Of a DNA stretch of 24,006 nucleotides, positions 222-21,531 are shown one piece after another. A model generated the notes under the pieces. It was not told where the DNA came from. It did no database searches and worked only from the letters and a program-made list of their open reading frames with translations. Within the stretch, counting starts at the first letter, position 1, and each line of letters starts with the position of its first letter. The translations under genes were made by a program, and so were the position numbers. Origin of the DNA: a virus; IMG/VR virus record IMGVR_UViG_3300035698_026868, positions 1-24,006 of that record; one strand, written 5' to 3'.

Positions 222-440
222 ATGATAAATATGATGCACGTTATAATTCTAATCAGTATTTTTCTCATCATTTCAGTAATGATCAATCTTTTTCTAGCAA
301 TCAAGATAGTCAAAACTAAAAAAACAACAAATATTAAACCGTCTCAGGAATTGTCCGATTTCTTATCTGACACTAAAACGCACGGATATGGCTTTGTAAG
401 AGTCGATCCCAATAATGTGTTTACACGCTTGAGGCGCTAA
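222..440 (+). CDS. Small single-pass membrane protein
   Basis: Encodes 72 residues. Residues about 5-28 form one strongly hydrophobic segment, followed by a basic stretch (KIVKTKK), which suggests the C-terminus is cytoplasmic. The tail has a distinctive segment, SDFLSDTKTHGYGFVRVDP, that looks conserved rather than random. There is no strong Shine-Dalgarno before ATG 222; ATG 231 and 234 are alternative starts. The stop codon overlaps the ATG of the next gene (TAATG at 438-442), so it is translationally coupled to the sugar-enzyme cassette. Function is not recognised. Confidence 0.6.
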   Translation: MINMMHVIILISIFLIISVMINLFLAIKIVKTKKTTNIKPSQELSDFLSDTKTHGYGFVRVDPNNVFTRLRR

Positions 441-1294
441 TGAATATTTTAATTACTGGTATCACTGGGACACTAGGTACAATAGTGACTCAAAAGCTTT
501 TGGAAGATGGTCACGTTATTATTGGTCTGTCTAGAGATGAGCAAAAGCAACAAACTTTCAAATATAAAGATCATGTTAATTTAATTTTGGGTGATGTTAG
601 AGATCGAGATTCATTCAATAGAATTAATTATAGAATTGATAAGATATTTCATTTTGCAGCACTTAAATGCATCGATGTAATGGAAAGAAACCCACTTGAA
701 TGTATCAAAACTAACCTCCAAGCTACAAAAAACGTGTTAAATTACGCAGAAAAGGGTAATAAAACTGTAATTTTTACATCAACAGATAAAGCCGTTTATC
801 CGGTGAATGTATATGGACACTGCAAAGCCATTAGTGAAACGCTAATTCTTGATAGTGCAGTGCGACATATCGTTTGTAGGTATGGTAACGTGATAGGTAG
901 TCGAGGGAGTGTAATCCCTCTCTTTTATGACAGCATTAAGAACCACGGATCATTCAATATTACGTCAATGCAAATGACTCGTTTTTGGATAACTCAAGAT
1001 GAAGCTGCAGATTTTGTGATTGACAGCGCTAATAAGATTGATGGTGGTTTAAAAATACCTTTTATTCGAAGCGCTTCTGTGTATCATGTAGCTGAGACCA
1101 TCCAAAGGTTTTTAAATAAAGATAATGTCAAGATTAAGAAAGTTGATATTAGGCCAGGTGAAAAATTGCATGAGTGTTTATCAAGAGAAGCGGAAAATGG
1201 TGTTAAAGATGCTTACAGTAATAATCCAACTTATCTGATGAATGAAAAAGAGTTAGAAGATTTACTGTTCCCAATATTGAAAGGGCTGTCATGA
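440..1294 (+). CDS. NAD-dependent nucleotide-sugar 4,6-dehydratase/epimerase, PseB/CapD type (extended SDR)
   Basis: Encodes 284 residues. Visible extended short-chain dehydrogenase features are the NAD-binding GITGTLG at residues 7-13, a GDVRD acidic turn at 51-55, HFAALK at 71-76, STDKAV at 114-119, and Tyr125/Lys129 as the YxxxK pair. RYGNVIGSRGSV at 147-158 and RPGEKLHE at 238-245 are hallmarks of the PseB/FlaA1/CapD branch. The STDK motif places Asp116-Lys117 where PseB uses Asp/Lys with Tyr for 4,6-dehydration and C5 epimerisation of UDP-GlcNAc, the first step to pseudaminic acid. It is shorter than typical PseB (about 330). GAGG upstream and a TAATG overlap support ATG 440. The exact substrate and stereochemistry are inferred. 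Confidence 0.87.
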   Translation: MNILITGITGTLGTIVTQKLLEDGHVIIGLSRDEQKQQTFKYKDHVNLILGDVRDRDSFNRINYRIDKIFHFAALKCIDVMERNPLECIKTNLQATKNVLNYAEKGNKTVIFTSTDKAVYPVNVYGHCKAISETLILDSAVRHIVCRYGNVIGSRGSVIPLFYDSIKNHGSFNITSMQMTRFWITQDEAADFVIDSANKIDGGLKIPFIRSASVYHVAETIQRFLNKDNVKIKKVDIRPGEKLHECLSREAENGVKDAYSNNPTYLMNEKELEDLLFPILKGLS

Positions 1295-1917
1295 TCGGTA
1301 TTGTAGGCATAAAAGGTAACATGGGTTATAGGTATAGGATTGGATTGGAATTCTTAAAAGAGGAATGTTGTGGTTGGGATTATGAAGCCGATGAAGAGAA
1401 GATAATATCAGTTCAAAGGATAGCAGATAAATATATAATCGCTACACCTACTGAAACCCATATTGATATTTTAAAAGATCTGATGCCATACGGCAAACCC
1501 ATTTTATGTGAAAAGCCAATCGTCAAAACCCGTGAAGACTTTGAAGAATTAAAGCTCCTAATGGAAAAGTTTGATACCCCATTATTTATGGTAAATCAAT
1601 ATAATTATATTCGAGAGCTTGGCTTGGGCGCTGGCACTTATTATAATTATTATAATACTGGTAAAGACGGTGTATTCTGGGATTGCATACAACTAATTCA
1701 TCTAGCAAGAGGTGATCTAATTATTAAAACTAATAGTCCAGTTTGGAAATGTAAAATAAACGGAGTAAGACTGTCCAAGGATGATATCGACGGATTATAT
1801 TTGAAAATGCTATCCGACTTCCAAACGGATATGGTAAGTCTTTGGGGTAAAAAAGATATTTTAGAAGCTCATGAAAAGGTGTTTGCTTATGAAAGTGCTA
1901 ATAGGAATTCAAGCTAG
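1291..1917 (+). CDS. Short Gfo/Idh/MocA-family oxidoreductase
   Basis: Encodes 208 residues and overlaps the previous gene by ATGA (1291-1294). The N-terminal half is a Rossmann domain: GIVGIKGNMG at 3-12, ATPTETH at 51-57, and the family signature CEKPI at 73-77 with the catalytic-type Lys. The C-terminal part (NQYNY at 102-106, then WDCIQLIH around 130-137) retains an outline of the substrate domain but is much shortened, because family members usually have about 330 residues. Such enzymes oxidise or reduce sugar hydroxyls with NAD(P). Its place inside a nucleotide-sugar cassette suggests a sugar-modifying step, though the substrate is not evident. There is no sign of a frameshift; it looks compact rather than broken. 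Confidence 0.75.
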   Translation: MIGIVGIKGNMGYRYRIGLEFLKEECCGWDYEADEEKIISVQRIADKYIIATPTETHIDILKDLMPYGKPILCEKPIVKTREDFEELKLLMEKFDTPLFMVNQYNYIRELGLGAGTYYNYYNTGKDGVFWDCIQLIHLARGDLIIKTNSPVWKCKINGVRLSKDDIDGLYLKMLSDFQTDMVSLWGKKDILEAHEKVFAYESANRNSS

Positions 1918-2590
1918 ATCAACTAGTACCAGGTTGCCAAATAAAATACATATGGATCTAGGTGGTAAGCCAGTCCTGCAGTGGGTTCTTGACTCATGTA
2001 AGCAGGCTATGGACTTTCTAAATAGATCAAACTTAGGTGTTAATGTAGACCTAGCTTTATTGATCCCAAAGGATGATAAACTAAAAGACTTGTACGAGGG
2101 TAAAGTTGAGATAGTCGAAGGGAGTGAGTTAGATGTTATTAGCCGATATATTAAAGCTCTTCATCAATACGATTCTGATTACATTTGCCGCATTACGAGC
2201 GATTGCCCTTTTATACCACCTCATATTATATCGAGATGTATTAAAAGCGCAGTCATCAAAAAGAGTGACTATATTAGCAATGTATTAGTGAGAACGTTCA
2301 AAGAAGGGTATGACACTGAAGTTCTATCAAGGGGATTAATGCAATTCCTTGATTCCATTAGTGAGCTACCTGAAGAGAGAGAGCACGTCACTTTAAAGAT
2401 GTTTAAGTATCAAAAGAATCAAGATTTTGATTTACCATTTACCATCTGTCATATCCTGCAGCAATTTGATGAGAGCTTTATTACAACCTCTATCGATACT
2501 TTAGAAGAATATCACAAAGCATTGAATGTTATTAAGACGATAAAAAATAAACGCTATGAAGCACAATCAACTGGAATTTGTATTGCATGA
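1889..2590 (+). CDS. SpsF-like CMP/NDP-sugar cytidylyltransferase
   Basis: Encodes 233 residues from ATG 1889, chosen over ATG 1871 because AAAAGG lies about 9 bases upstream and MKVLIGIQARS matches the usual family N-terminus. Nucleotidyltransferase motifs are IQARSTSTRLPNK at 7-19, GGKPVLQWV at 25-33, SELDVISRY at 79-87, RITSDCPFI at 101-109 and DYISN at 127-131. This is the SpsF/COG1861 relative of the CMP-nonulosonate synthetases NeuA and PseF, which activate the sugar acid with CTP. The gene overlaps the oxidoreductase by 29 bases and the aminotransferase by ATGA. In bacteria, SpsF sits with NeuB-like SpsE and acetyltransferase SpsD, the same set of families found in this window. Confidence 0.82.
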   Translation: MKVLIGIQARSTSTRLPNKIHMDLGGKPVLQWVLDSCKQAMDFLNRSNLGVNVDLALLIPKDDKLKDLYEGKVEIVEGSELDVISRYIKALHQYDSDYICRITSDCPFIPPHIISRCIKSAVIKKSDYISNVLVRTFKEGYDTEVLSRGLMQFLDSISELPEEREHVTLKMFKYQKNQDFDLPFTICHILQQFDESFITTSIDTLEEYHKALNVIKTIKNKRYEAQSTGICIA

Positions 2591-3777
2591 GATACTTAGA
2601 TAGGGCTAATATAAGCATAGCGCATGGAGCGCTAACTAATAGCAAAAGGCCAGAAAGTTTTGTTAAGGGAATATACCCAACTCATATATCTCGTTCGCAA
2701 AGTTGCTATGTTTTTGATGAATATAACCAAAAGTTTATTGATTATATTTGTGGCCTGGGTACTAATATCTTTGGCTATGATAACTTAGAAATTCGTGAAG
2801 CTGTAACTAAACAATTGAGAACGGGTGCAGTTTATAGTTTATCATCAACTCTAGAAGTAGACGCTGCAGATATTTTCAAAGGCATGTTTACTTTTATGGA
2901 CCGTTTAAGGTTTTTAAAGACCGGCTCAGAGGCTTGTTCGGCAGCGATCAAAATTGCTCGTGCATATACGGGCAGGAAATTGATCCTTAGCGAAGGCTAC
3001 CACGGTTGGCATGATGAATTTGTATCTCTTACTCCCCCTGCGAATGGAGTAATTGATTCTGGTTTTATGAAACATTTAAATGAAAAGAATCTTGAAAATA
3101 AAGATACGATAGCAGGCATTATATTAGAGCCTGTAATAATAGATCACTCACCTAAGCGGATCAAGTATTTAAGAGACCTTAGATCTTTTTGTGACACTCA
3201 TGGAATTGTCTTAATATTTGATGAAATCATAACAGGCTTTCGCTGGCCTAAATATTGCGTTGCAAAACAATATGGAATTAACCCAGACTTAATTTGTCTG
3301 GGAAAAGGCATAGGGGGAGGGCTTCCTTTAAGTATTGTTGGTGGCAGGGCTAAGATCATGGAGGCGGATTATTTTGTAAGTTCAACCTTTGCAGGTGATC
3401 TGCTTTCCCTTGCTGCCGGCATAAAGGCTTGTGAGTTAATTAAGAGTTCTTATGCAATAGATCGGACTTGGTTAGAGGGAAGAAAGTTTATTGATAAGTT
3501 TAACCAACTCGCTCCTAAAATTATTAAGATAGAAGGGTATCCGACTCGAGGGATATTTACCGGAAGAGATAAAGAAAAGTCCCTATTCTTTCAAGAAATG
3601 TGTAAGGCTGGGGTATTATTTGGACCATCATTTTTCTTTAATCTCGACCTAGCTGCAGAGACTCATAACGTTCTCAATGTATCAGAATGGGTTTTAAGGA
3701 AGATAGAATTAAATCAAGTTGAATTAACCGGAGCAAGGCCATTGAAGCCTTTCGCTCAAAAAGTAAGGGATGTGTAA
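2587..3777 (+). CDS. Class III PLP-dependent aminotransferase (glutamate-1-semialdehyde aminomutase-like)
   Basis: Encodes 396 residues from ATG 2587, which overlaps the preceding stop (ATGA). Class III fold-type I signatures are present: KTGSEACSAAIKIAR at 111-125 (phosphate-binding), GYHGWHD at 137-143, DEIITGFR at 212-219 with the PLP-contacting Asp, and LGKGIGGGLPLSIVGGR at 238-254 with Schiff-base Lys240. SSTFAGD at 265-271 is where relatives read GTLSGNP or similar. The length is a little below HemL (about 430). Tetrapyrrole synthesis is unlikely here. In a sugar cassette it probably aminates a keto-sugar, replacing the DegT-type aminotransferase PseC; that role is inferred. Confidence 0.83.
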   Translation: MRYLDRANISIAHGALTNSKRPESFVKGIYPTHISRSQSCYVFDEYNQKFIDYICGLGTNIFGYDNLEIREAVTKQLRTGAVYSLSSTLEVDAADIFKGMFTFMDRLRFLKTGSEACSAAIKIARAYTGRKLILSEGYHGWHDEFVSLTPPANGVIDSGFMKHLNEKNLENKDTIAGIILEPVIIDHSPKRIKYLRDLRSFCDTHGIVLIFDEIITGFRWPKYCVAKQYGINPDLICLGKGIGGGLPLSIVGGRAKIMEADYFVSSTFAGDLLSLAAGIKACELIKSSYAIDRTWLEGRKFIDKFNQLAPKIIKIEGYPTRGIFTGRDKEKSLFFQEMCKAGVLFGPSFFFNLDLAAETHNVLNVSEWVLRKIELNQVELTGARPLKPFAQKVRDV

Positions 3778-4007
3778 TGAAACAATTTTTATCGTTTAGA
3801 GTTCATGAAAATATTGCAGAGCCTAAAAAAAAACCTATCTTAGTTGCTTGTGATGAGATGGTCAATATGGAGACTGTGTCACGAATAGCACCTTGCTATA
3901 AAGATGGTGAGAAACTCCATAATAGATGTATCCTAGTGATCCCAGGGCAACCTATCATGATTGACGGATCCTATGAAGAGGTAAAGAAGAGGCTTGATGC
4001 ATTATGA
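3777..4007 (+). CDS. Small protein of unknown function inside the sugar cassette
   Basis: Encodes 76 residues, with ATG overlapping the aminotransferase stop (TAATG at 3775-3779) and AGGGATG upstream. It has a basic, Pro-containing N-terminus and a beta-rich centre. The C-terminus, VIPGQPIMIDGSYEEVKKRL, faintly resembles the small FlbD-like or phage beta-proteins that end in a [VI]xGSxEEV helix. Two Cys residues (25 and 40) do not form a clear metal site. It is wedged between aminotransferase and acetyltransferase with overlaps on both sides, so it is co-translated with them. No enzymatic motif is seen; an accessory or regulatory role is possible but unsupported. Confidence 0.65.
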   Translation: MKQFLSFRVHENIAEPKKKPILVACDEMVNMETVSRIAPCYKDGEKLHNRCILVIPGQPIMIDGSYEEVKKRLDAL

Positions 4008-4522
4008 TATCTTATGGAAATAAAAGAGTAAGTCTGACAGGCATCATACCGGTTGAAGCCATGTCATGGAGGAACGAAAGTTCGGTTTATGACTATTGCC
4101 GTCAGCATACTTTGATTAGTCCTCAGGACCAACTTAACTGGCTTGATAAGATAGAAACCGATCCGCTTATTAAAATGTACGGTATAGACTACTATGGCGA
4201 AGAGGTTGGAGTGTGTGGCTTCACTAGCATTAATCTTATAAATCGATCTGCAGAGTTTAGTCTTTATATTAAACCTGAAGCTCAAGGTAAAGGGTTAGGT
4301 AAAGATGCTTTATACTGCTTGATAAGACATGGCTTTGAGGCTTGGGGTTTCAATCGAATTTGGGGAGAGACCTTTTCCAAAAACCCAGCTCTTGACCTGT
4401 TCACATCCATGGGATTTAAAATTGAAGGTAAACTTAAGCAAACTCATTTTAAAAAAGGTGTTTATTTAGATTCATTTATGATTGCAATTTTAAGGAGTGA
4501 ATGGGATGAATTATGCGATTGA
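4004..4522 (+). CDS. GNAT N-acetyltransferase, PseH/RimJ-RimL-like
   Basis: Encodes 172 residues. The N-terminal half has WRNESSVYDYC at 22-32, the WRN-type start of amino-sugar GNATs such as PseH. Motif A, the acetyl-CoA pyrophosphate loop, is QGKGLGKDAL at 94-103. Motif B, NPALDLFTSMGF at 127-138, is also present, followed by a short beta strand and the phrase DSFMIAIL near the end. PseH acetylates the 4-amino group of UDP-4-amino-sugar in the pseudaminate pathway, and SpsD is the equivalent in spore-coat polysaccharide synthesis. The gene overlaps its upstream neighbour by ATGA (4004-4007) and ends the enzyme run. A protein-acetylating function cannot be excluded. Confidence 0.8.
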   Translation: MISYGNKRVSLTGIIPVEAMSWRNESSVYDYCRQHTLISPQDQLNWLDKIETDPLIKMYGIDYYGEEVGVCGFTSINLINRSAEFSLYIKPEAQGKGLGKDALYCLIRHGFEAWGFNRIWGETFSKNPALDLFTSMGFKIEGKLKQTHFKKGVYLDSFMIAILRSEWDELCD

Positions 4523-5625: not shown

Positions 5626-5745
5626 GAGTAAAAAACCCTATACCCTAACCTAACTTTTAGTGCCTTGGAAGCCCCGATGGGTAAGGCCCTGTCTGCTAGT
5701 GGAAAAACTAATGAAGAACTTAAGTAAGAACCATTATGAAATACG

Positions 5746-5973
5746 CTAAATAATTTTACTTGATTTGATACTATCTACTGGGTTAGTATCTACACCATTA
5801 AAGTGGGTATTTGTTTCAAGTAAGATTTTTTTAGATATGGTCAATGTATCAAGTAATTGTTTGGCCCTGCGGGTGACAGGTCTTAACGCCCAACTTAGCA
5901 TTACCGTGTCCATTGGGCCGGCCCTAACACCGGTCCTCAATTTTTTAATGAGATTTTGCGAAAACTCAGTCAT
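5746..5973 (-). CDS. Small basic protein of unknown function
   Basis: Encodes 75 residues on the minus strand. AAAGG five bases before ATG 5973 is a good ribosome-binding site, and the orientation agrees with the flanking leftward operon. Both facts favour this frame over the similarly long plus-strand reading. The protein is basic and probably helical, with no membrane segment or metal-binding motif. Its position between the membrane protein and RusA suggests an accessory replication-region gene. Function is not recognised. Confidence 0.5.
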   Translation of the reverse strand: MTEFSQNLIKKLRTGVRAGPMDTVMLSWALRPVTRRAKQLLDTLTISKKILLETNTHFNGVDTNPVDSIKSSKII

Positions 5974-6032
5974 TTCAGCCTTTAAATCATGTTCATAAAA
6001 ACACTATAATAAAACACTAAATTTGTAAATGA

Positions 6033-6227
6033 TCATTTTAAATTATTATCCAGGGGTGTAACAGTCACTTCATTATCTGTAATATGTACTTCACAAGGAG
6101 TTATACCAGTCCTGCCTAAATTAAAGATATCCTTGGCTACACTACCAAATATAAAATGTAACACTGTTACAAAGATTATCAATCCAAATATCGATGTAAG
6201 TAACAGTATAATAAATATTGTAATCAT
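6033..6227 (-). CDS. Small membrane protein
   Basis: Encodes 64 residues on the minus strand. Residues 2-28 are almost entirely hydrophobic and form one long transmembrane segment, followed by a polar domain of about 35 residues (VTPLDNN near the end). The start overlaps the stop of the upstream Cys-rich gene by one base (TAATG). It is therefore co-translated with the replication genes. No family is recognised. Confidence 0.6.
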   Translation of the reverse strand: MITIFIILLLTSIFGLIIFVTVLHFIFGSVAKDIFNLGRTGITPCEVHITDNEVTVTPLDNNLK

Positions 6228-6706
6228 TAGAAACTCATTTTCTTTGATAACTGATTAATAACTTCTTTTAGGTTTTTACTGATCAACCCTTTTTCCACTT
6301 TATCTTTAAACTCAGCAATTTCTTGAGGGCCAAATTTATTGCGCCAGACCGATCTATCAGTGGGACAAGTTTTATAGTATTTCTGCTTCCAATATTTAGC
6401 GCTATTACAGTCTCTATTGGGACAAAGAAATATATGATCGGTACTATCCTCTTTTCTTTCTAAACTAATCCTACCCCCTAGACAGGCCGTATGATCGCAT
6501 GATTCATATTCTTTACAATCAGGTCGATCGATACCATCTATTATGACAGTAAATGAGTCTACACTGGGGAATTTAACACCTTCATTAATAACTCTTTCCA
6601 TTGATTGATCGAAGGCGTTTTCACTACACCCTTCTATTTGCTTCCATAAGTAATCCACAAACTTATCGGTCCCAAGGCGCTTGCCTTGAATCTCTTCGTA
6701 ATCCAT
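6227..6706 (-). CDS. Cys-rich (probable zinc-binding) protein of the replication operon
   Basis: Encodes 159 residues from ATG 6706. The frame stays open to a TTG at 6823 and has ATG 6793 preceded by AGGGAAG, but those starts overlap the upstream gene by 65-95 bases, so 6706 is preferred with reserve. Six Cys at 64, 70, 75, 95, 100 and 114, with several His and Asp nearby, look like one or two zinc sites. The C-terminal third is a Lys/Glu-rich helix. It follows the DnaD/O-like initiator, the place where phages often encode a helicase loader or a second replication factor. No Walker motif is present, so it is not a DnaC-type ATPase. Confidence 0.55.
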   Translation of the reverse strand: MDYEEIQGKRLGTDKFVDYLWKQIEGCSENAFDQSMERVINEGVKFPSVDSFTVIIDGIDRPDCKEYESCDHTACLGGRISLERKEDSTDHIFLCPNRDCNSAKYWKQKYYKTCPTDRSVWRNKFGPQEIAEFKDKVEKGLISKNLKEVINQLSKKMSF

Positions 6707-6728
6707 TACTTTTCCGAGATAGTAACCT

Positions 6729-7349
6729 TTAGATATCTTCACTTCCCATGAACCTCTTGGCAAACTCTGCACGCTCTCTTCTGCGTACTTCATCAGCCAT
6801 TTCTTCCCTGGTTTTTTGATCAACTAATTTTACACATTTATCCCAATGCTTAATTAGTCCACTTGTCGATTGTATTACTTGACTCCAAAAATGATCCTTG
6901 AATATTGCTTTAACAACTCTCTTAATAATGTCGTAATCGTCTAAAGCATTTTGAAGCTTTTGAATGTCGGTCGCCCAATCTTGAATTTTAACTTTGCTTA
7001 AATTGAGAGCTTTTTTATTGTTGGCTTTAACACTACTTAATATTAACTCAGCTATGTCTAAATCAATCTGATCGTAGGTATATTTTAGATCAACCTTATT
7101 GTTTTGTTTCTTTTTTACGACTAGTGTCGTACGAGAGTTTCCTTGTCTTGGCAAGATTTCAATATACTTATTTAACTTTAAAAGTCTCTTCTTAATAAAT
7201 GTCTTTTCAAGCCCTGTTAAATCGGCTAATTCTCTGTGACTAATATCAACAAATTCTGACTTTTTAGCTAGGTTATAAACGTGAGCATAAATCAGTAAGT
7301 AACCATTACCCATATCAATTAAGTGGCTCAACTCTTTTGGAGTTATCAT
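6729..7349 (-). CDS. Replication initiator, DnaD/lambda O-like winged-helix protein
   Basis: Encodes 206 residues on the minus strand. Residues about 8-75 look like a winged helix: a first helix with a GNGYLLIYAHVY segment, the HTH-like HRELADLTGLEKTFIKKRLLKL at about 38-59, and a beta wing with PRQGNSRTTLVVKKK. The C-terminal part has FWSQVIQSTSGLIKHWDKC at 154-172, which resembles the DnaD/DnaT-type ssDNA-binding end of phage replisome organisers (a conserved W/F-x-S-x-I then L-x-x-x-W). These proteins bind the phage origin and recruit the host helicase. It is the first gene of the leftward operon, directly at the divergent control region. The ribosome-binding site is modest. Confidence 0.62.
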   Translation of the reverse strand: MITPKELSHLIDMGNGYLLIYAHVYNLAKKSEFVDISHRELADLTGLEKTFIKKRLLKLNKYIEILPRQGNSRTTLVVKKKQNNKVDLKYTYDQIDLDIAELILSSVKANNKKALNLSKVKIQDWATDIQKLQNALDDYDIIKRVVKAIFKDHFWSQVIQSTSGLIKHWDKCVKLVDQKTREEMADEVRRRERAEFAKRFMGSEDI

Positions 7350-7383
7350 CTTGCATCTCTTTCTTTAACATTAAGTTAATTTG

Positions 7384-7412
7384 AATTTAGAACAAATAAA
7401 TAAAATTGTAAA
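7384..7412 (-). promoter_or_regulatory. Leftward promoter of the replication operon
   Basis: On the minus strand, TTTACA (7412-7407) is followed after 17 bases by TAAATT (7389-7384), about 35 bases upstream of the initiator ATG at 7349. The -35 lies within the left arm of the palindrome at 7406-7430. The -10 match is only moderate. Confidence 0.45.
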
Positions 7413-7430
7413 GTCTTTTTTACTTTACAA
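7406..7430. promoter_or_regulatory. Palindromic operator candidate in divergent control region
   Basis: TTGTAAAGT (7406-7414) and ACTTTACAA (7422-7430) are perfect 9-base inverted arms with a 7-base T-rich spacer. Each arm carries a TTTACA hexamer that serves as -35 for one of the two divergent transcription units. A dimeric repressor bound here would silence both directions; the ribbon-helix-helix protein encoded at 7478 is the obvious candidate. Confidence 0.55.
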
Positions 7431-7454
7431 TAAAAAAATAATACTATATATATT
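7424..7454 (+). promoter_or_regulatory. Rightward promoter for the RHH-SSB operon
   Basis: TTTACA (7424-7429) lies in the right arm of the palindrome. The A/T-rich track downstream offers TATATA at 7447-7452 (17-base spacer) or TATATT at 7449-7454 (19-base spacer) as -10. Transcription would start 15-20 bases before the ATG at 7478. Confidence 0.45.
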
Positions 7455-7477
7455 GATTAATAACAAGGGGGATAGAG

Positions 7478-7636
7478 ATGAAAAAAGAATTAAATACAAC
7501 TGTTCAAATTCCACGAGAAGTTTATGTCAGGCTGCAAGAAATTAAGCTTAAATATTTGGAGCGTGGTGAGAAGTTTAGGATTAGAGATTATGTTGAAGAA
7601 GTGTTACTTGACGCAACTGATAGGGAGCTACACTAA
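7478..7636 (+). CDS. Ribbon-helix-helix (Arc/MetJ-type) transcriptional regulator
   Basis: Encodes 52 residues: ATG 7478 to TAA 7634-7636, preceded by AAGGGGG six bases upstream. The sequence begins MKKELNTTVQIPREVYVRL, a short basic beta strand (TTVQIP) leading into helix A, then a turn with ERGEKFRIRDYV and helix B ending in VLLDAT. This is the standard beta-helix-helix layout in which two monomers pair their strands and insert them in the DNA major groove. The stop overlaps the SSB start (TAATG). Its place next to a perfect palindrome controlling two operons suggests autoregulation of the replication switch. RHH assignment rests on pattern alone. Confidence 0.68.
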   Translation: MKKELNTTVQIPREVYVRLQEIKLKYLERGEKFRIRDYVEEVLLDATDRELH

Positions 7637-7941
7637 TGAATAGAGTCACGTTGATTGGATATCTCGGAAGTGATGCTGAGATTAAGGACTACAATGATGG
7701 GTCATACGTTAGATTAAATTTTGCTACTAGCGAAAAAATACTGGATGAAAAGGTCACGAATTGGCATTCAGTAATCCTTTTTGGCAAAATAATAGAATGG
7801 TCAATGCCATTGCATAAGGGTCAGAAGCTAATGATCGAAGGTCAGATCAAATACAAAGAGATTGAGGGTAAAGTGTTAACGTCAATAATTGCTAGATCAC
7901 TGCACAAAATGGAAAGGAATGACAATAATGATTCTAGATAG
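7636..7941 (+). CDS. ssb: Single-stranded DNA-binding protein (OB fold)
   Basis: Encodes 101 residues. MNRVTLIGYLGSDAEIK is the typical SSB N-terminus, followed by YVRLNFATSEK, TNWHSVILFGK and GQKLMIEGQIKYKE, which are the OB-fold strands and the conserved W-H and G-L-E positions. The domain is complete, but the protein ends at about residue 101 with Asn/Asp/Arg and lacks the long linker and acidic DDDIPF-type tip that recruits partner proteins. It coats ssDNA during phage replication and recombination. The 3' end overlaps the next small gene by 14 bases. The Erf protein in the same operon carries a tip of the missing type. Confidence 0.9.
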   Translation: MNRVTLIGYLGSDAEIKDYNDGSYVRLNFATSEKILDEKVTNWHSVILFGKIIEWSMPLHKGQKLMIEGQIKYKEIEGKVLTSIIARSLHKMERNDNNDSR

Positions 7942-8101
7942 AGATGGATCTGGGAATGGTTCTGGCCATGGATATGGTGATGGATATGGATATGGATATG
8001 GTGATGGTGATGGTAGTGGGCATGGATATGGTGATGGTGATGGTGATGGATATGGATATGGTAATGGTAGTGGGCATGGATATGGTGATGGTGATGGTTG
8101 A
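7928..8101 (+). CDS. Gly/Tyr/Asp-rich repeat peptide
   Basis: Encodes 57 residues from ATG 7928, with AAAGGA upstream inside the SSB gene. After a short leader (MILDRDG) the whole protein is a low-complexity run of GYG, GDG, GSG and GHG units. It has no hydrophobic core and is probably disordered; the alternating Gly-Asp could bind cations. Similar Gly-Tyr-Asp peptides occur beside DUF6948-type genes in other phages as far as I recall, and this window has one on each side of that gene. Coding is supported by the ribosome-binding site and by a repeat unit that keeps the frame; function is unknown. Confidence 0.6.
   Translation: MILDRDGSGNGSGHGYGDGYGYGYGDGDGSGHGYGDGDGDGYGYGNGSGHGYGDGDG
7949..8101 (+). 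repeat. GGTGATGGATAT-type hexanucleotide-based tandem repeat
   Basis: The DNA is an imperfect array of 6-base units of the form GGTGAT, GGATAT, GGTAGT and GGGCAT. All units are multiples of three bases, so copy-number change by slippage would lengthen or shorten the peptide without a frameshift. A related shorter run lies at 8443-8528. Confidence 0.8.
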
Positions 8102-8130
8102 TGTTAAAAAATAAAAACTAATTTTTAACA
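8102..8130 (+). other. AT-rich hairpin between repeat gene and DUF6948-like gene
   Basis: TGTTAAAAA (8102-8110) and TTTTTAACA (8122-8130) form a perfect 9-base stem with an 11-base loop, immediately after the stop codon. The stem has few G/C pairs, so it is a weak attenuator or RNA-stability element at most, not a convincing terminator. Confidence 0.35.
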
Positions 8131-8142
8131 AAAAGGGATAAA

Positions 8143-8442
8143 ATGAAGTCAAAAAATATTGGTAAAATTTGTATGGTAAGGACTTATAGTGCAGGCGTAT
8201 TTTATGGAAAACTTGAGTCATTAGAAGGTCAACATGGAGTAGTGAAAAAAGCAAGGCGCGTCTGGTATTGGGATGGTGCGGCTTCATTGTCACAGCTAGC
8301 AACAAAGGGATCTTCTGCACCTGAGAACTGTAAATTTCCGTGTGCTGTAGAATCTGTGGAGCTAACAGAGATTATTGAAATTATTCCTATGACAGCAAAA
8401 GCTATCAAGGCACTTGACTCGGTTAAAATATGGGAAAAATGA
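8143..8442 (+). CDS. DUF6948-like phage protein
   Basis: Encodes 99 residues with AAAGGG upstream. The sequence shows a small beta-rich domain with VRTYSAGVFYGKLESLEG at about 12-29, ARRVWYWDGAASLSQLA at 37-53 and a C-terminal ESVELTEIIEIIPMTAKA. These are the phrases I associate with the DUF6948 family, common in phages and without known function. The family match is from memory. The gene is bracketed by two Gly-Tyr-Asp-rich peptide genes and its stop overlaps the next start (ATGA at 8439-8442), so the three are expressed together. Confidence 0.72.
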   Translation: MKSKNIGKICMVRTYSAGVFYGKLESLEGQHGVVKKARRVWYWDGAASLSQLATKGSSAPENCKFPCAVESVELTEIIEIIPMTAKAIKALDSVKIWEK

Positions 8443-8700: not shown

Positions 8701-8707
8701 GATAAGT

Positions 8708-12909: not shown

Positions 12910-12932
12910 GATCCCCCCTTTAAATTCCGATA

Positions 12933-13412: not shown

Positions 13413-14189
13413 ATGAAATTCAAAGAATGCATGGAAAAAGAGATTCCTTATATCATTGCAGAAATAGGTAGCAACTGGCGAAAGTATCCTGATTATGAAT
13501 CGTGTTTTGACATTACACTAGAGCAAATATATAGAGCTCATGTTGCCGGATCCGATGCAGTTAAGTTTCAAATATTTACCCATCTTGAATTGTATGGATA
13601 TGAAGACCCAGAGGCCGAGTTAAATGATTATGTCTTCCCACGGTCATGGGTACCAAGGATTAAAACATATTGTGATGCTGTGGGTATTGATTTTATGTGT
13701 TCGGCGTTTAGTCCGGAGGGTTATAATTTTATCGATCCCTTTGTTGATGTCCATAAGATCGCAGCGCCAGAGGGCAACTGGGAATATCTAGTTGATCATG
13801 TTAAATCTAAAGGTAAGGATATCATTAAATCGGGCAAAGCTTATGATATTGATGCAATAGATTATGATGTATTTTGCATCGAAACTGTGAGTAATTATCC
13901 TGCGAACCCTAGAGACTATGAGATAGTAAACAGCTTTATGGGTTTATCAGATCATACTAAAGGGTTTGACTTAATTAAAGAGGCTTTGAATTGTGATTAT
14001 AGAATATTTGAAGTTCATGTAGACTTATTATTTGGAGAGGTTAAAACTCCCGATGCTTGCGTGTCACTTAACTACTTTGATTTCACTGAGTATGTTGACA
14101 GGATTAGAAACCCTGATAAGTATTATAAAGAACCAAAAGATTATTCTAGAAAAGAAGGTAAAGATGGTTGGTTTAGACCAAAGTTATGA
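13413..14189 (+). CDS. NeuB/PseI/SpsE-like nonulosonic acid synthase without SAF domain
   Basis: Encodes 258 residues with AGAGGGTAAT upstream. It follows the NeuB TIM barrel: AEIGSNW with Glu17, SDAVKFQ with Lys51 and Gln53 (47-53), MCSAFSPEGYNF (95-106), HKIAAPEGNWE with Lys115, Glu120 and Asn122, IETVSNYP (156-163), GLSDHTKG with His181 (178-184), EVHVDL with His202, and TPDACVSL (212-219). Cellular NeuB has about 340-350 residues, the extra being a C-terminal SAF (antifreeze-like) domain that supplies an Arg to the neighbouring active site; here that domain is absent. The reaction would be condensation of PEP with an N-acetyl hexosamine. It lies between the terminase genes and overlaps terL by ATGA. 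Confidence 0.85.
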   Translation: MKFKECMEKEIPYIIAEIGSNWRKYPDYESCFDITLEQIYRAHVAGSDAVKFQIFTHLELYGYEDPEAELNDYVFPRSWVPRIKTYCDAVGIDFMCSAFSPEGYNFIDPFVDVHKIAAPEGNWEYLVDHVKSKGKDIIKSGKAYDIDAIDYDVFCIETVSNYPANPRDYEIVNSFMGLSDHTKGFDLIKEALNCDYRIFEVHVDLLFGEVKTPDACVSLNYFDFTEYVDRIRNPDKYYKEPKDYSRKEGKDGWFRPKL

Positions 14190-15472
14190 AATTCATATTA
14201 CATAAATATCAGGTTCTAGCCCATTATGCTTTACAACAAATTATTATAATGGCTGCAGGTATACAGTCAGGCAAAACCTCAATGGGATCTTATTGGTCAG
14301 GTCTCAAGGCTACCAACGGCAGTAGGTCGGCAAACCATATCATAGTGGCTCCTACTTATAAGATACTACAACAAGCATCACTTCCAAAGTTCCTTGGTAC
14401 GTGGTCAAAGTTTGGGAAATACAATAAGGTTGACTCAACATTTAAATGGAGTCACGGACCCACTACTTATATTAGATCAATGACTGATCCAAATTCCTGT
14501 GAGGGAATCACAGATGTTGAAAGTATTTGGGCGGATGAATGCGGGTTATTATCTCGGTTTGCCTGGGAAAATATCATGGGTCGGGCAGCCTTTAAACAAG
14601 CGCAAATCATTGGCACTACTACTCCGTACGCCCTAAATTGGTTATATCAATTATGGATTGACTGGAATAAGGGAAAGCGAGACGACGTATCATTTATTAC
14701 ATTTAAGTCAACTGATAATCCCAACTTTCCACAGGCAGAGTATGATCGACAAAAAGGTATCTTAGATATTACCCGTTTCAATATGAAATATAATGGCGTG
14801 TTCGGACAAATGGAAGGGCTTGTGTATCCCAATGTAAACAGGTGTCAGTCATTCATAATGCCTATCGGCACTCAATATTATGCAGGCGTTGACTGGGGAT
14901 ATACCAACCCCTTTGCCCTTGTCATTAGAGCCATAACACCAGACGGTTTACATTACAGAATATCAGAGTATTATCGTACACAGATGACTCTCGAAGAAAT
15001 GATAGAGATATGCAAAGTTAGACAGCAAATGTTTAACATCGAAATATTTGTATGTGATCCTGCCGAACCAAAAAGCATTGAGTCATTTAATAGAGCCGGC
15101 TTAACTTCTATTCCAGGGGATAACTCAATAAGAACTGGTATCGATTGCCACTTGAGATTAATAAAAGAGAAGAGGTTCTTTATCTTTGAAGACCTTAACC
15201 CAGAAGGGTTAGATGAGTATTCAACCTATCACTATCCGGAAGATAAAGAGGTCAAGATAGATGATGATGCTAAAGAACAATTACCCGTAAAGCAGAACGA
15301 TCATGGTATGGATGCTGATAGGCTTGTGACAATGTTCTTAGAGTATAACAAAAGCTTAAAGAAGAGTTCCCCCTTTGTACCAAACGAAAATAAAGAGATC
15401 CCAAGAGAGCCCTATAAGAAAATAGATTATCTAAAGAATAGAAACCGAGGTGGTTTTGTACGTCACGATTGA
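14186..15472 (+). CDS. terL: Terminase large subunit (packaging ATPase/nuclease)
   Basis: Encodes 428 residues, starting at ATGA overlap with the NeuB-like gene. The ATPase domain has Walker A GIQSGKTS (25-32), an adenine-side HIIVAPTYK (51-59), Walker B VESIWADECG (111-120) with Asp117-Glu118, and the coupling motif GTTTP (143-147). The RNase H-like nuclease domain has acidic residues Asp236 (AGVDWGYT), Asp291 (VCDPAEP) and Asp376/378 (HGMDADR). The protein drives DNA into the procapsid through the portal and cuts the concatemer. All catalytic motifs are intact. Confidence 0.93.
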   Translation: MKFILHKYQVLAHYALQQIIIMAAGIQSGKTSMGSYWSGLKATNGSRSANHIIVAPTYKILQQASLPKFLGTWSKFGKYNKVDSTFKWSHGPTTYIRSMTDPNSCEGITDVESIWADECGLLSRFAWENIMGRAAFKQAQIIGTTTPYALNWLYQLWIDWNKGKRDDVSFITFKSTDNPNFPQAEYDRQKGILDITRFNMKYNGVFGQMEGLVYPNVNRCQSFIMPIGTQYYAGVDWGYTNPFALVIRAITPDGLHYRISEYYRTQMTLEEMIEICKVRQQMFNIEIFVCDPAEPKSIESFNRAGLTSIPGDNSIRTGIDCHLRLIKEKRFFIFEDLNPEGLDEYSTYHYPEDKEVKIDDDAKEQLPVKQNDHGMDADRLVTMFLEYNKSLKKSSPFVPNENKEIPREPYKKIDYLKNRNRGGFVRHD

Positions 15473-15574: not shown

Positions 15575-15877
15575 ATGGTCTACGAGTACGTTTGCCCTAT
15601 TTGTAATTATCGAGATGAAATTATTAAAGGTCTCGAGGAGTTTGAAAGACAAGAGGTTTGTCCTATTTGTAAAGAGAAAATGGTTAGACTTATATCATTA
15701 ACTCACATCGATAATTCGTCTTTAGAAACTCCTTACTTTTCGTCATCTTTAGGTAAACGTGTTAGCACTAGAAAAGAAGAGGTTTACGAGGCTAAGCGAC
15801 TTGGCTTTGAAGAGGTTGGTAACGAAGATCAAGGTAAACATATTAAACCGCCGGTATCTGACTGGGAGAGTGTATAA
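15575..15877 (+). CDS. FmdB-like zinc-ribbon protein
   Basis: Encodes 100 residues with AGGAGTCG upstream. MVYEYVCPICNYRDE and EVCPICKEKMVRL contribute CPIC (7-10) and CPIC (29-32), the two knuckles of an FmdB-type zinc ribbon. The C-terminal part has PYFSSSLGKRVSTRKEEVYE then AKRLGFEEVGNED, a phrase common in phage proteins of this type between terminase and portal. It ends on the portal start (TAATG). Its role in phages is unknown; a packaging or head-assembly accessory is possible from location. The 100-base gap before it is AT-rich, with a TTAGTA-T-TACTAA inverted repeat at 15491-15503. Confidence 0.75.
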   Translation: MVYEYVCPICNYRDEIIKGLEEFERQEVCPICKEKMVRLISLTHIDNSSLETPYFSSSLGKRVSTRKEEVYEAKRLGFEEVGNEDQGKHIKPPVSDWESV

Positions 15878-17736
15878 TGGCAAATAAAATTGACGAGCAT
15901 CAAGCACCTTCAAAGGATGAAAGCCTTGATAAACAGGACAAAGAAAATAAAGAGGCGCAAGTCATTAAGATGGTCGAGAAGCTACTTGAAAAAGCTAAGC
16001 GCTTCAGGGCTTCTTACGATCAAGATTGGGTTGAGAATTATCAATTTTATAGAGGCAAACACTGGAAAGAAAAAAGACCATCGTACCGACACTCTGAAGT
16101 ATTAAATCTAACCAGGTCAGCTATTCAAAACGTGATAGCGCCTATTATGACCGATACTAGACCTAACATTGAAACCGTTCCAGAGGAGCCAAGTGATTTT
16201 GATTTCTCTGAAGTTATGACTCATATCCTTCGTTCTAAATGGGATAGAAAAGATTACTCAAGAGTTGTTGTTGATGCCATTATTGATGCATCCATTTACG
16301 GTACATCTATTTCGGAAGTACCTTGGAATAAAGATGAATTTTATGGGATCGGTGATTACGAGTTTAATACTATCGATCCATTGTATTTCTTTCCGGATCC
16401 AAGCGCACAAGAGATCAATCACCCCTCCTGTAACTTTGTAATTTATGCAGAGCCTAAAGATATCTCTGAAGTCAAACGACTCTATCCTGATAAGGCAAGT
16501 CAGATTAAAGCCGATGTCCTATCAGAAGCTGGGGTATTGGAAGAGAAGAGAGCCGAGAAAGACCCAAGGGTGCAGACAAACGCTGCGAATGCTGACCTAG
16601 TAGAGACCCAGGGGACAGGCGAAAGTAACGCAGATAGTCAAGTTGTATTAATCCAATGTTGGATGAATGATGATGAGGTTATTGAAGAGAAAATAGAAAA
16701 GGCCGATGAAGACGGTAATGTCACCCAGGCATTTAAGCAAATGAAAAAGTATCCCAGGGGTCGCAAGATTGTGATTGCTGGCAAAACTCTATTAGAAGAT
16801 ATTGATAATCCATATGCTGATGGTAAGTTTCCTTTCGCCCGCTATGTCGATAATCAGATGCCACGTGAGTTCTGGGGAGATGGCGAAGTAAGGATGATGA
16901 AGTCAACTAATATGATGATCGATAAAATCATGTCATATATATTGGACGTGTTAATTCTAACTGGTAACCCAATTTGGAAAGTTCCAAATGGCAGTGGGAT
17001 AGATGCTGAGCAGTTAATAAACGCACCTGGTTTAGTCATTCCATATAATGATGGTTTTGAACCAAGGCGTGAAGCTGGAACGCAATTACAACCATATATA
17101 ATCCAAACCTTAGATAGGTTGGTTAATTTATTTGAAAAAGAGAGTGGCATTAACGAAGTATCTCAAGGCGCAACACCTTCATCCAATGCTAGTGGAGTAG
17201 CTATCGAAAGATTGCAAGAGGCTGCACAAAGTAAGATCCGAATGAAGTCTAGAAACTTAGAAACATTCCTTAATCAAGCAGGCCGATTGCAGGTATCTAG
17301 AATATTACAATTCTATACTGAGCCAAGGGTGATAAGACTGACTGATACTCCTGAGGCCGCAAGGTATTTTAAATTTCATGTTGAAGAACAACTCGATGAG
17401 ACCGGACAAGTCCAGGCTCAGCTTGCCACCATTACTCCATACGTCGTTGATGAGCAAGGCAACCCTATCGAAGGTCAACCAAGGGAATTTGATATCAAAG
17501 GTCAGTTAGATGTTAGAATCATTACTGGAACAGAGTTACCTTTTGCTAGAGCGACTAAGGCTGCAAAAGCTAGGGAATTGTTTCAACTTGGAGTTATAGA
17601 CGAAGAGGACTTATTAGAGGCTATGGAATGGCCACGTAAAGAAAAAATATTAAAAAAATTAAACCAACGTAAACAAGCCGAGGCTGAAGCCCTTGCAATG
17701 CAAGCGCAACAAGCAGGCCCACAAGGAGCAAAATAA
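15877..17736 (+). CDS. Portal protein
   Basis: Encodes 619 residues, overlapping the preceding stop by one base. The N-terminal part has a charged leader and YDQDWVENYQFYRGKHW (about 46-62), then SAIQNVIAPIMTDTRPNIE, a well-known portal phrase. The middle has DASIYGTSISEV and IDPLYFFPDPSA. The region QGATPSSNASGVAIERLQEA (about 429-448) is typical of P22-type and related portals. The C-terminus is Lys/Gln/Ala-rich. The portal forms the dodecameric ring at one head vertex, docking the terminase and later the tail connector. Length is in the usual range. Confidence 0.9.
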   Translation: MANKIDEHQAPSKDESLDKQDKENKEAQVIKMVEKLLEKAKRFRASYDQDWVENYQFYRGKHWKEKRPSYRHSEVLNLTRSAIQNVIAPIMTDTRPNIETVPEEPSDFDFSEVMTHILRSKWDRKDYSRVVVDAIIDASIYGTSISEVPWNKDEFYGIGDYEFNTIDPLYFFPDPSAQEINHPSCNFVIYAEPKDISEVKRLYPDKASQIKADVLSEAGVLEEKRAEKDPRVQTNAANADLVETQGTGESNADSQVVLIQCWMNDDEVIEEKIEKADEDGNVTQAFKQMKKYPRGRKIVIAGKTLLEDIDNPYADGKFPFARYVDNQMPREFWGDGEVRMMKSTNMMIDKIMSYILDVLILTGNPIWKVPNGSGIDAEQLINAPGLVIPYNDGFEPRREAGTQLQPYIIQTLDRLVNLFEKESGINEVSQGATPSSNASGVAIERLQEAAQSKIRMKSRNLETFLNQAGRLQVSRILQFYTEPRVIRLTDTPEAARYFKFHVEEQLDETGQVQAQLATITPYVVDEQGNPIEGQPREFDIKGQLDVRIITGTELPFARATKAAKARELFQLGVIDEEDLLEAMEWPRKEKILKKLNQRKQAEAEALAMQAQQAGPQGAK

Positions 17737-19012: not shown

Positions 19013-19930
19013 ATGGCTCTAACATATGACCAAATTTCAGGAATAACTGAGAAGAAATTTTTACCAAAATTAGTAGATAATTTATTTAACAACCATCCAC
19101 TTTTAAAGCGGTTTAAGAAAAATGAACAGCTTTTAGACGGTGGGACAAAGGCTATTATACCTTTAGAGTATGCTGAAGCCACTGCAACAGGCTGGTATCA
19201 AGGCGCTGAGACTTTAGACGTAAATGATAATGAAATTTTGACAGCGGCAGAATATTCTTGGAAGCAACAATATGTAAACATAAGTATTACACGACGTGAT
19301 GAGCTTATGAACATGGGTGACGCTGGCAAGATCAACTTTGTTAAAAGCAAGATGAAAAATGCTGAAAAGACTCTTAGAGATCAATTAGCTGAAGGAATTT
19401 ACAATGATGGTTCTGATGCTAAAGCTATTGTAGGATTACGAGCGATCTGTTCTGCTAGTAACACCATCGGTGGAATTAGTCAAAGTGACTATTCATGGTG
19501 GCAAGCACAGTTAGATTCATCTACAACAACCTTGACAATTGCCGCTATGCAGAGTCTATATGGCGACTGTGGTGAGGGAACAGAGTATCCTACGGTGATG
19601 GTTGGCGATCAAGACATGTATGACCGTTACTACAATCTTTTACAGCCCCAACAACGCTTCCAGAGCGAGTCTGAAGCTAAGGGTGGGTTTCAAAGCCTTA
19701 TGTTCAACGGAATAAGTATAATTGCTGACAACAAAGCACCTAGTGGATACCTTTTCGCTCTTAATGAAGAGTATGTTAAGCTATATCCACACAAGGACGA
19801 GAATTTTCGCTTTGAGAAGTTCATGAAACCACCTAACCAAAATTTAAAATTAGCTAAGATCTACTTTATGGGCGTATTCGCTAGCTCTAATAACCGTAGA
19901 CATGGCGCTATGAGTGCAATTACAGCGTAA
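19013..19930 (+). CDS. Major capsid protein (HK97-type fold expected)
   Basis: Encodes 305 residues with AAAGGAGATCC upstream, one of the strongest ribosome-binding sites here. It begins MALTYDQISGITEKKFLPKL and contains VNISITRRDELMNMGD (about 92-107) and IYNDGSDAKAIVGLRAI (about 128-144). Later it has TVMVGDQDMYDRYYNLLQPQ (about 194-213), a block commonly seen in phage major capsid proteins, and a C-terminal KIYFMGVFASSNNRRHGAM. Its position after the scaffold supports this. There is no large N-terminal delta domain, consistent with a separate scaffold. Confidence 0.85.
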   Translation: MALTYDQISGITEKKFLPKLVDNLFNNHPLLKRFKKNEQLLDGGTKAIIPLEYAEATATGWYQGAETLDVNDNEILTAAEYSWKQQYVNISITRRDELMNMGDAGKINFVKSKMKNAEKTLRDQLAEGIYNDGSDAKAIVGLRAICSASNTIGGISQSDYSWWQAQLDSSTTTLTIAAMQSLYGDCGEGTEYPTVMVGDQDMYDRYYNLLQPQQRFQSESEAKGGFQSLMFNGISIIADNKAPSGYLFALNEEYVKLYPHKDENFRFEKFMKPPNQNLKLAKIYFMGVFASSNNRRHGAMSAITA

Positions 19931-19961: not shown

Positions 19962-20435
19962 ATGACTTTTCAATATGGCGGACCCGTTTTAATGGAAAGT
20001 GTATCAAACACTACAGCTACTTTGGGAGTTAATTCTCCTCAGCTTGGAACTAAAGCAATGATCAACGGCGAAGACTATATCTTCGTTTATAACGGTGGAG
20101 GAGCTAGTATCACTGCAGGACACGCTGTAGTAATGAGTAACATTTCTGGTGTTCAAACTTATAATGTAAGCGTATCTTCAGTCACACAAGTAGACTTTGG
20201 CTTCGGTCTTTGTAAACATCAAACCATAGCTACCGGATATTACGGCTGGGTTATGTCTAGAGGGTTTGCTTCTTTTAAGACTGACGGAACTATTAACGCT
20301 CTTGGTGGTGGACTTATGCTAGGCGCAAATGGTGCTATCGCTACTGCTATCAACGGTCACACAACACCAATTTGTGGTAAGTTATTACAAACCACAACTG
20401 GCGGAGCTGGTTACGGATACTTTTTCTTTCAGTAG
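19962..20435 (+). CDS. Small structural protein, possible capsid decoration protein
   Basis: Encodes 157 residues with a full AAGGAGG upstream. It is Gly/Thr/Ser/Ala-rich with few charges and predicted mainly beta, ending in YGYFFFQ. The N-terminal MTFQYGGPVLMESVSNTTA and the central AGHAVVMSNISGVQTYNVS segments recall beta-rich decoration proteins that follow the major capsid gene in many phages. A clear terminator comes right after it, so its mRNA abundance should match that of the capsid protein. Confidence 0.65.
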   Translation: MTFQYGGPVLMESVSNTTATLGVNSPQLGTKAMINGEDYIFVYNGGGASITAGHAVVMSNISGVQTYNVSVSSVTQVDFGFGLCKHQTIATGYYGWVMSRGFASFKTDGTINALGGGLMLGANGAIATAINGHTTPICGKLLQTTTGGAGYGYFFFQ

Positions 20436-20446: not shown

Positions 20447-20472
20447 GTAGGGCTTCACGGCCCTACTTTTTT
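20447..20472 (+). terminator. Rho-independent terminator after the capsid genes
   Basis: GTAGGGC (20447-20453) pairs with GCCCTAC (20460-20466) around a 6-base loop (TTCACG), followed by six T (20467-20472). It is the only convincing intrinsic terminator in the window, and separates the capsid genes from the DUF115 gene. Confidence 0.85.
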
Positions 20473-20496
20473 ATATATATGAAAAGGGGAAATTAT

Positions 20497-21531
20497 ATGA
20501 CGTTAAAAACAGTTGAAATGGACTTCGAGTATATGAATTATATACCCGCTAGTCCTACTAAACCAAGCGAACTTTTCGGTCAAGCTTGTTCAAACGACCG
20601 GATCACCATTGACTCTTGGAGACCTACTTGGATAAAAAATATCAAAGAGAATAACGAAAGGTTTGGCCCATTCAAAGACAAACATATAGGTATGCTTTAT
20701 AAAAAGCACGCCCTTATGCCTATGATTGTTGCCGGTGCGGGCCCTAGTCTAAAAGATAACGCAGATGAGTTATTAAAAAAGAAAGATATACCCTTAATTT
20801 CTTGTCTACATAATTTTCATTTCTTCGAAGATAAAGGAATAGATGTTGATTATTACGTTACCTTAGACGCTGGGCCGATTACCATCAGCGAAATTCATGA
20901 AGGTTCTGATAAAGGTCTAGATTATTATCTCGAAAGATCCAAGAATAAAAAGCTACTTGCATTCATTGGTACAGATCCAAAACTTATTGAGCTTTGGCAA
21001 GGTGAGGTTTACTGGTTTAACGCTCCCATACCCGACCAACAACTTCTAAAAGAAATTGAAAATGTTGAGAAGCTTGAAATGTTTGTGTCAAACGGCGGCA
21101 ACGTCTTAGGTGCTTGCATGTATATAGCTAAGTCAATCATGGGAGCTAGTCAAATTGCTTTTATCGGAGCTGATTTTTCCTTTTCATATAGTAAAAAGTT
21201 TCACGGTTGGAACTCCCAATATGACTCTAAAATAGGCAATGCCATGAGGGCCACTGATATCTTTGGTCACAAGGTGTTAACCTGGGGTTCATATTGGAAT
21301 TTTAAAAGTTGGTTTGATTATATTTTTCAAACAGTACCAGGTATTTGGATTAATTGTAGCGAAGGTGGTTGCATGGGAGCCTATCCCGAGGGCAACATTC
21401 AGCAATGCATTCAGATGCCACTTAGTCAATTTATAGCACAACAATACATGCATGAGATGGTTGAATCTCAATGCTTAAAACCTGAAGATGGGAAAGATCC
21501 CCTGACAGGACAAATTAAACTATTATTTTAA
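20497..21531 (+). CDS. Maf/MptE-like (DUF115) putative glycosyltransferase
   Basis: Encodes 344 residues from ATG 20497, because AAAAGGGG at 20482-20489 has the right spacing; the frame remains open upstream through the terminator, which cannot be coding. MIVAGAGPSLKDNADEL (76-92), DYYVTLDAG (118-126), SNGGNVLGACMYIAKSIMGA (198-217), FIGADFSFS (222-230), ATDIFGHKV (252-260) and NCSEGGCMGAY (286-296) are the pattern of the DUF115 family, which contains 6-hydroxymethylpterin pyrophosphokinase MptE and the central domain of Maf flagellin glycosyltransferases. Maf proteins transfer pseudaminic or legionaminic acid from CMP to Ser/Thr. With NulO-type genes in the window, a transferase role is preferred over a pterin kinase. 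Confidence 0.78.
   Translation: MTLKTVEMDFEYMNYIPASPTKPSELFGQACSNDRITIDSWRPTWIKNIKENNERFGPFKDKHIGMLYKKHALMPMIVAGAGPSLKDNADELLKKKDIPLISCLHNFHFFEDKGIDVDYYVTLDAGPITISEIHEGSDKGLDYYLERSKNKKLLAFIGTDPKLIELWQGEVYWFNAPIPDQQLLKEIENVEKLEMFVSNGGNVLGACMYIAKSIMGASQIAFIGADFSFSYSKKFHGWNSQYDSKIGNAMRATDIFGHKVLTWGSYWNFKSWFDYIFQTVPGIWINCSEGGCMGAYPEGNIQQCIQMPLSQFIAQQYMHEMVESQCLKPEDGKDPLTGQIKLLF

Follow-up and report, generated by a model that had tools for sequence, protein, structure and literature searches.

The window analyzed here is the whole of IMG/VR record IMGVR_UViG_3300035698_026868 (24,006 bases), part of the genome of a phage whose portal is P22-like, and our study concerns the dispersed sugar genes that it carries (Table 1). 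A sequence-only reading had named six of them, encoding a PseB-like dehydratase, an SpsF-like cytidylyltransferase, a class III aminotransferase (AT3), a PseH-like GNAT acetyltransferase, a NeuB-like synthase, and a DUF115 protein, but had overlooked two more, encoding a compact Gfo/Idh dehydrogenase and a small membrane protein. We propose, with a probability of about 0.6, that these genes form a phage-borne surface-sugar module in which an ulosonic acid activated with cytidine monophosphate (CMP) is put on a phage structural protein late in infection. The sugar genes are a nearly fixed genome component in a large family of uncultivated phages.

The view that the dispersed genes belong together, already put forward from the window sequence, is borne out by the recurrence of the set over a phage clade known from metagenomes only. 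Scanning viral contigs with the DUF115 protein, and then with its profile, gave 143 IMG/VR contigs with a relative, of which 17 contigs of at least 31 kb were examined whole. All seven families (PseB, Gfo/Idh, SpsF, AT3, GNAT, NeuB, and DUF115) were present in 13 of these 17; among the other four, G047 lacks only a recognizable Gfo/Idh gene, G001 and G043 have the cassette cut at the contig start, and G029 is without the pathway. A capsid-protein scan, run separately to avoid selecting on DUF115, found DUF115 in 68/68 loci with enough downstream sequence and NeuB in 32/34 loci with enough sequence upstream of TerL (terminase large subunit). Of 47 other clade contigs, many being partial, 27 have a NeuB relative. 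The counts are not entirely independent because some clade contigs are near-duplicates. Direct repeats of 126 and 114 bp are present at the ends of contigs G009 and G046, respectively. Chance or contamination, considered as a source of the gene set, was ruled out by its recurrence over the diverged clade. Mean identities of the cassette proteins (0.35 to 0.46) are similar to that of TerL (0.44), and the distances of AT3, SpsF, NeuB, GNAT, and Gfo/Idh correlate with those of TerL (r 0.28 to 0.59, P at most 0.006; for AT3 only with the decayed G029 copy excluded), which, PseB excepted, suggests that the cassette is old in the clade.

The gene order points the same way. Successive genes across 222 to 4522 overlap by 1 to 29 bases, which indicates that the cassette is one operon, and overlapping start and stop codons connect the cassette genes and likewise NeuB to TerL. 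Promoter and terminator scans gave a result no better than shuffled sequences. In longer relatives, the cassette lies directly after tail and fiber-like genes, on the same strand, and before the early genes. The earlier description of an early-side cassette was therefore wrong, an impression that arose because the window contig happens to begin at the cassette. The separation of NeuB from the cassette, which had been taken as special, is not general either, given that a sibling phage, L227, has PseB, NeuB, Gfo/Idh, SpsF, and AT3 contiguous (5703 to 9854), just upstream of TerL (11241), and DUF115 after the capsid gene. The arrangement in L237 is similar, and L252 carries the cassette in the opposite orientation to its head genes. 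Distant phage lineages with little head-gene similarity carry PseB, AT3, NeuB, and SpsF in other orders; SpsF and AT3 are fused in some of them, such as L267, which also has a DegT aminotransferase. PF01973, the Pfam family of the DUF115 protein, was found in a branch with a rearranged cassette (5 contigs) and was not found in the more distant lineages that carry PseB, AT3, NeuB, and SpsF. In one lineage without PF01973, a 424-amino-acid DUF354-like protein, a possible alternative glycosyltransferase, is encoded between GNAT-type genes and SpsF (L249:12306-13577). Repeated rearrangement with retention suggests that the cassette genes work together, and we consider it almost certain that the genes form one functional unit.

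The six open reading frames named earlier are present at the coordinates given and in the broad families called, all above Pfam cut-offs (Polysacc_synt_2, 209 bits; CTP_transf_3, 58; Aminotran_3, 140; Acetyltransf_3, 43; PF03102, 73; PF01973, 72), and the longest reading frames extend a few codons upstream of the ATG starts at 1889, 2587, and 20497. The PseB-, PseH-, and NeuB-type names hold at the family level but do not reach NCBIfam equivalog cut-offs, and we therefore keep the names at that level. The best PDB match of the PseB-like protein is 2gn4, a C6 dehydratase of uridine diphosphate (UDP)-N-acetylglucosamine (E 7e-47), and its score against the PseB equivalog was 205.9 bits where 407.75 are required; the catalytic TDK and YxxxK motifs are kept in nearly all clade copies, with Met for Tyr in G015. 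PseH is the best NCBIfam model for the GNAT protein, yet at 69.6 bits against a cut-off of 93.1. The SpsF-like protein (CTP_transf_3, 58.3 bits against a gathering score of 22.6) matches the cytidylyltransferase 6oew (E 2e-24), and KdsB models outscore PseF. The class III aminotransferase scores 139.6 bits, and its pyridoxal phosphate (PLP) lysine is kept in 20/20 pathway-bearing genomes. In G009, the aminotransferase frame carries an in-frame insert of unknown kind, roughly 150 to 170 amino acids long (L029:16962-18737), for which an Rfam search found no intron. The predicted model of the Gfo/Idh protein (pLDDT 94.5) resembles the WlbA/WbpB and GnnA 3-dehydrogenases. Enzymes of this type work together with an aminotransferase, and the likeness suggests that oxidation by the Gfo/Idh protein may be paired with transamination by the class III aminotransferase.

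The NeuB-like protein scores 72.9 bits against PF03102 (gathering score 22.1), and its gene lies 8 nt downstream of TerS and shares 4 nt with TerL. Residues K51, K115, D180, H181, E200, and H202 are invariant in 22/22 sequences, and we take these to be metal- and substrate-binding positions, including the two metal-binding histidines. The NCBIfam equivalogs were again out of reach (NeuB_NnaB, 53.9 bits against 399.65; PseI, 47.4 against 340.25).

The DUF115 protein (362 amino acids; PF01973, 72.4 bits against a 34.6 cut-off) had been called Maf/MptE-like, and its predicted structure upholds the Maf side of that call. By sequence, its profile matches the Maf structure 5mu5 weakly (E 0.006). The AlphaFold model (pLDDT 82.5, pTM 0.85) has 5mu5 as its top match (Foldseek E 8.5e-10; Z 18.9; root mean square deviation 3.8 over 240 aligned residues), followed at lower scores by archaeal HPPK/MptE (Z 14.2) and then by the sialyltransferases ST8SiaIII (human; Z about 10) and CstII (Z 8.5). 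The alignment covers only 5mu5 residues 238 to 536, the central domain, and the three-domain architecture of Maf was not found. A published description likens the central Maf domain to Cst-II, and flagellin receives nonulosonic acids (NulO) from Maf enzymes (PMC11339370). Proteins of the same fold are present in other uncultured phages, where they are annotated as MptE-like. Pfam matches place the NeuB-like and DUF115 proteins in the broad families named by the sequence-only reading. We propose that the DUF115 protein is a CMP-ulosonic acid transferase.

We envisage that the PseB-like dehydratase would make a 4-keto-6-deoxy amino sugar nucleotide, on which the Gfo/Idh dehydrogenase, the class III aminotransferase, and the GNAT protein would install an N-acetylated amino group. 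The NeuB-type synthase would then condense the freed sugar with phosphoenolpyruvate to a 3-deoxy-ulosonic acid, presumably of nine carbons, which the SpsF-type enzyme would activate as a CMP-sugar and the Maf-fold DUF115 transferase would attach, late in infection, to the capsid or a neighboring head protein. We consider it quite likely that the module makes a CMP-ulosonic acid used by DUF115 and, if it does, the odds that the acceptor is a virion protein are somewhat better than even, given the head-cluster position of DUF115, its near-universal presence, and its rarity in sequenced hosts. The shared head order of the clade is TerL, FmdB-like, portal, scaffold, capsid, the 19962 gene, DUF115, and the 21544 gene (21544-21813), and the placement of the attaching gene among capsid genes suggests that these viruses coat their own particles with the sugar. 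Conserved Ser/Thr in the 19962-20435 gene were examined as a pointer to the acceptor and were uninformative.

The same sugar could instead be placed on the host surface (flagellin, lipopolysaccharide, or capsule), altering the infected cell, for example to exclude other phages. Characterized Maf proteins do act on flagellin (PMC11339370; PMC7874193), and a tyrosine recombinase in 7/23 clade contigs means that some members may be temperate. However, DUF115 stood between capsid-proximal genes at all 68 clade loci tested in the capsid scan, and 16/23 contigs with DUF115 show no tyrosine recombinase (other recombinase types were not searched, and some contigs are partial). A scan of genomes from 84,980 species also returned a single contig with the phage DUF115, which speaks against lysogenic conversion as the main use, and we regard a host-surface acceptor as unlikely. 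That contig (L105, 3.5 kb, in an Actinomycetota metagenome-assembled genome bin) is not trusted; it is perhaps a stray phage contig or a hint of the host. A search for near DNA matches, aimed at assigning a host, returned none.

Several observations weigh against a phage-encoded module that decorates the virion. The first is the absence of recognized pathway steps, given that the DegT aminotransferase (PseC/LegC) was found in 0/21 clade contigs, with control genomes 14/14 positive, and the UDP-sugar hydrolases PseG and NeuC in 0/21 each, with working controls; the 21 contigs include two with terminal repeats. Nucleotide removal before NeuB thus has no recognized phage gene. The window NeuB (258 amino acids) stops after the barrel and is without the C-terminal SAF (antifreeze-like) domain, which is why we file it as NeuB-like rather than canonical NeuB; most relatives retain a longer C-terminal part, and several others are short like the window copy. 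PseB distances do not follow TerL (r 0.08, not significant), which suggests some exchange of PseB. The DUF115 model also resembles the pterin kinase MptE/archaeal HPPK (Z 14.2), and DUF115 is retained without NeuB in G029 and, perhaps, in G042 (an incomplete contig of 22.7 kb). Finally, gene position is the single line of evidence that points to an acceptor.

The missing PseC/LegC, PseG, and NeuC, together with a class III aminotransferase outside the PseC family, do not sustain the earlier claim of a complete route to CMP-activated pseudaminic or legionaminic acid, or the naming of either sugar as the product. They indicate a reduced or altered route in which at least one step is novel or host supplied. 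Class III aminotransferases occur in bacterial pseudaminic-type islands, and some such islands are also without PseG (PMC7874193). The gaps would be expected if the phage instead boosted or diverted a host NulO pathway, with PseC- and PseG-type steps supplied by the host and the CMP-NulO going to host glycans, and G029 keeps DUF115 only, as if the host could give the donor sugar. A large cassette fixed across a deeply diverged clade, plus a dedicated head-cluster transferase, is not predicted by such a strategy, which we consider quite unlikely.

A common fold does not prove the function of DUF115, and MptE is the main alternative. DUF115 could be a pyrophosphokinase like MptE, or have a structural role, with the sugar genes serving another end. 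The Pfam name and the HPPK resemblance favor this, but Maf is the best match by a clear margin with the GT29 and GT42 sialyltransferases next as a group, and PF01973 is also present in the sister branch whose cassette is rearranged; we therefore judge a nontransferase role to be very unlikely.

G029 appears to be a natural loss of the pathway. PseB, Gfo/Idh, SpsF, GNAT, and NeuB are all missing from this near-complete genome, and what is left of the aminotransferase is short and diverged (28% versus a typical 46%), with Ala in place of the PLP lysine. The c22 single-transmembrane protein is still present, and DUF115 is intact (59/59 invariant residues kept). On the TerL tree, G029 is nested within the clade, which favors a later loss over an ancestral absence, although the rooting is unreliable because of long outgroup branches. 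DUF115 can therefore persist without a phage-made donor, and in G029 it may use a host CMP-sugar or another donor. Upstream of TerS, G029 also encodes an FkbM methyltransferase and a TET/JBP oxygenase (L110:9017-10506), and no TET/JBP oxygenase was found in the 22 other clade contigs; a switch to DNA modification in G029 is possible. Glycosylation of DNA by phage glycosyltransferases has precedents (Pyle et al. 2024, as cited in PMC12619734), and this oxygenase beside TerS in a cassette-less phage could hint that the sugar modifies phage DNA rather than protein. However, the oxygenase never occurs alongside the cassette, and the Maf enzymes characterized so far act on protein (PMC11339370), making DNA a highly improbable target.

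Table 1. Features of the window relevant to the sugar module.
Feature	Coordinates	Strand	Evidence or remark
Small single-transmembrane protein, clade family c22, first gene before the cassette	222..440	+	Profile match, E 6e-10
PseB-like nucleotide-sugar 4,6-dehydratase (short-chain dehydrogenase/reductase; TDK, YxxxK motifs)	440..1294	+	Pfam, PDB match
Compact Gfo/Idh dehydrogenase, EKP motif, 208 amino acids	1291..1917	+	Between PseB and SpsF; fold match
SpsF/KdsB-like CMP-sugar synthetase (CTP_transf_3)	1889..2590	+	Pfam, PDB match
Class III (GSAM-like) PLP aminotransferase	2587..3777	+	PLP Lys243, numbering from TTG at 2578
76-amino-acid protein between aminotransferase and GNAT	3777..4007	+	No relative found in clade set
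GNAT N-acetyltransferase, PseH-like (under PseH cut-off)	4004..4522	+	Pfam, NCBIfam
NeuB-family ulosonic acid synthase, TIM barrel only	13413..14189	+	Pfam PF03102
Terminase large subunit (TerL), clade marker	14186..15472	+	Profile match
P22-like portal protein, clade marker	15877..17736	+	Profile match
Major capsid protein, candidate acceptor	19013..19930	+	phrog_9953 major head protein, E 7e-61
Conserved protein directly 3' of capsid gene, probable head-decoration protein, candidate acceptor	19962..20435	+	No match in family searches
DUF115/MptE-like protein, Maf central-domain fold, proposed CMP-ulosonic acid transferase	20497..21531	+	

Relatives of the c22 protein lie immediately upstream of PseB or Gfo/Idh and precede the cassette in most clade members. 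Elsewhere in the window, a papain-like C1 cysteine protease gene (12034-12939, minus strand; 80 bits), unusual for a phage, has a relative in G047, and short repeat arrays encoding GDGYGYGDG-like Gly-rich tracts (7906-8109 and 8444-8545) overlap small early reading frames. A single-sequence IMG/VR scan gave no close relatives of window proteins P0007 and P0010, and none were found for P0007 and P0008 in cultured phages; relatives were reached only through DUF115 and profile queries. TerL proteins of about 770 amino acids occur in G007 and G047 (L008:2652-4991 and L137:10441-12741), one with a LAGLIDADG domain and the other with an intein splicing domain.

The module shares a PseB-type dehydratase, a GNAT protein, a NeuB-type synthase, a CMP-sugar synthetase, and a Maf-fold transferase with the Pse flagellin pathway (PseB-C-H-G-I-F plus Maf). 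It differs in having a class III aminotransferase and a short Gfo/Idh protein but no PseC (DegT) or PseG, and in being made of core genes beside capsid and tail genes rather than flagellar genes. A class III aminotransferase is likewise encoded in Aeromonas group I islands (PMC7874193). The pse cluster of Pseudosulfitobacter pSMR1-1 (L140) shares PseB, GNAT, SpsF plus AT3, and the NeuB-type synthase; it has PseC and PseG besides, and its SpsF and AT3 are fused (677 amino acids), whereas they are separate in the window clade. Magnetospirillum Maf (5mu5) shares the central PF01973 fold and a GxGPS motif with DUF115, but the phage protein is the central domain alone, at about 15% identity and with head-gene neighbors. 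The nearest cultured relatives by capsid protein (29 to 31% identity) are the Mx8-like and ppBjS10J-1-like (Bradyrhizobium) phages, which have a similar head order (terminase, portal, scaffold region, capsid, small structural protein, and tail genes); a tblastn search of the phage collection (E 0.01), these phages included, found no NeuB or DUF115 relative. Glycosylated mycobacteriophage virions carry sugar on capsid or tail proteins (Freeman et al. 2023, as cited in PMC12619734), whereas the clade phages also encode donor synthesis, and an ulosonic acid is the sugar predicted for them.

It is already known that phages can encode modifiers of host glycans and that some phage capsids carry glycans. 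In searches of an open-access library, we found no description of a phage clade with acidic-sugar synthesis and a transferase as near-universal core genes, and nothing direct on phage NulO plus DUF115. More tentatively, and at less than even odds, our findings could mean that an entire family of phages with P22-type portals puts an ulosonic (sialic-like) acid on its own virions. The pathway would be reduced and phage encoded, with a class III aminotransferase and a compact Gfo/Idh protein taking the place of PseC and without need of a known nucleotide-sugar hydrolase, and the transferase would be a minimal Maf-type enzyme encoded by a core gene of the head cluster. A minimal Maf domain and an unusual route to an ulosonic acid would then be available for study, with G029 as a natural loss mutant to compare against. 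If the virion is indeed the acceptor, these phages would wear self-made sialic-like coats, which would be relevant to adsorption, particle charge, stability, and host recognition.

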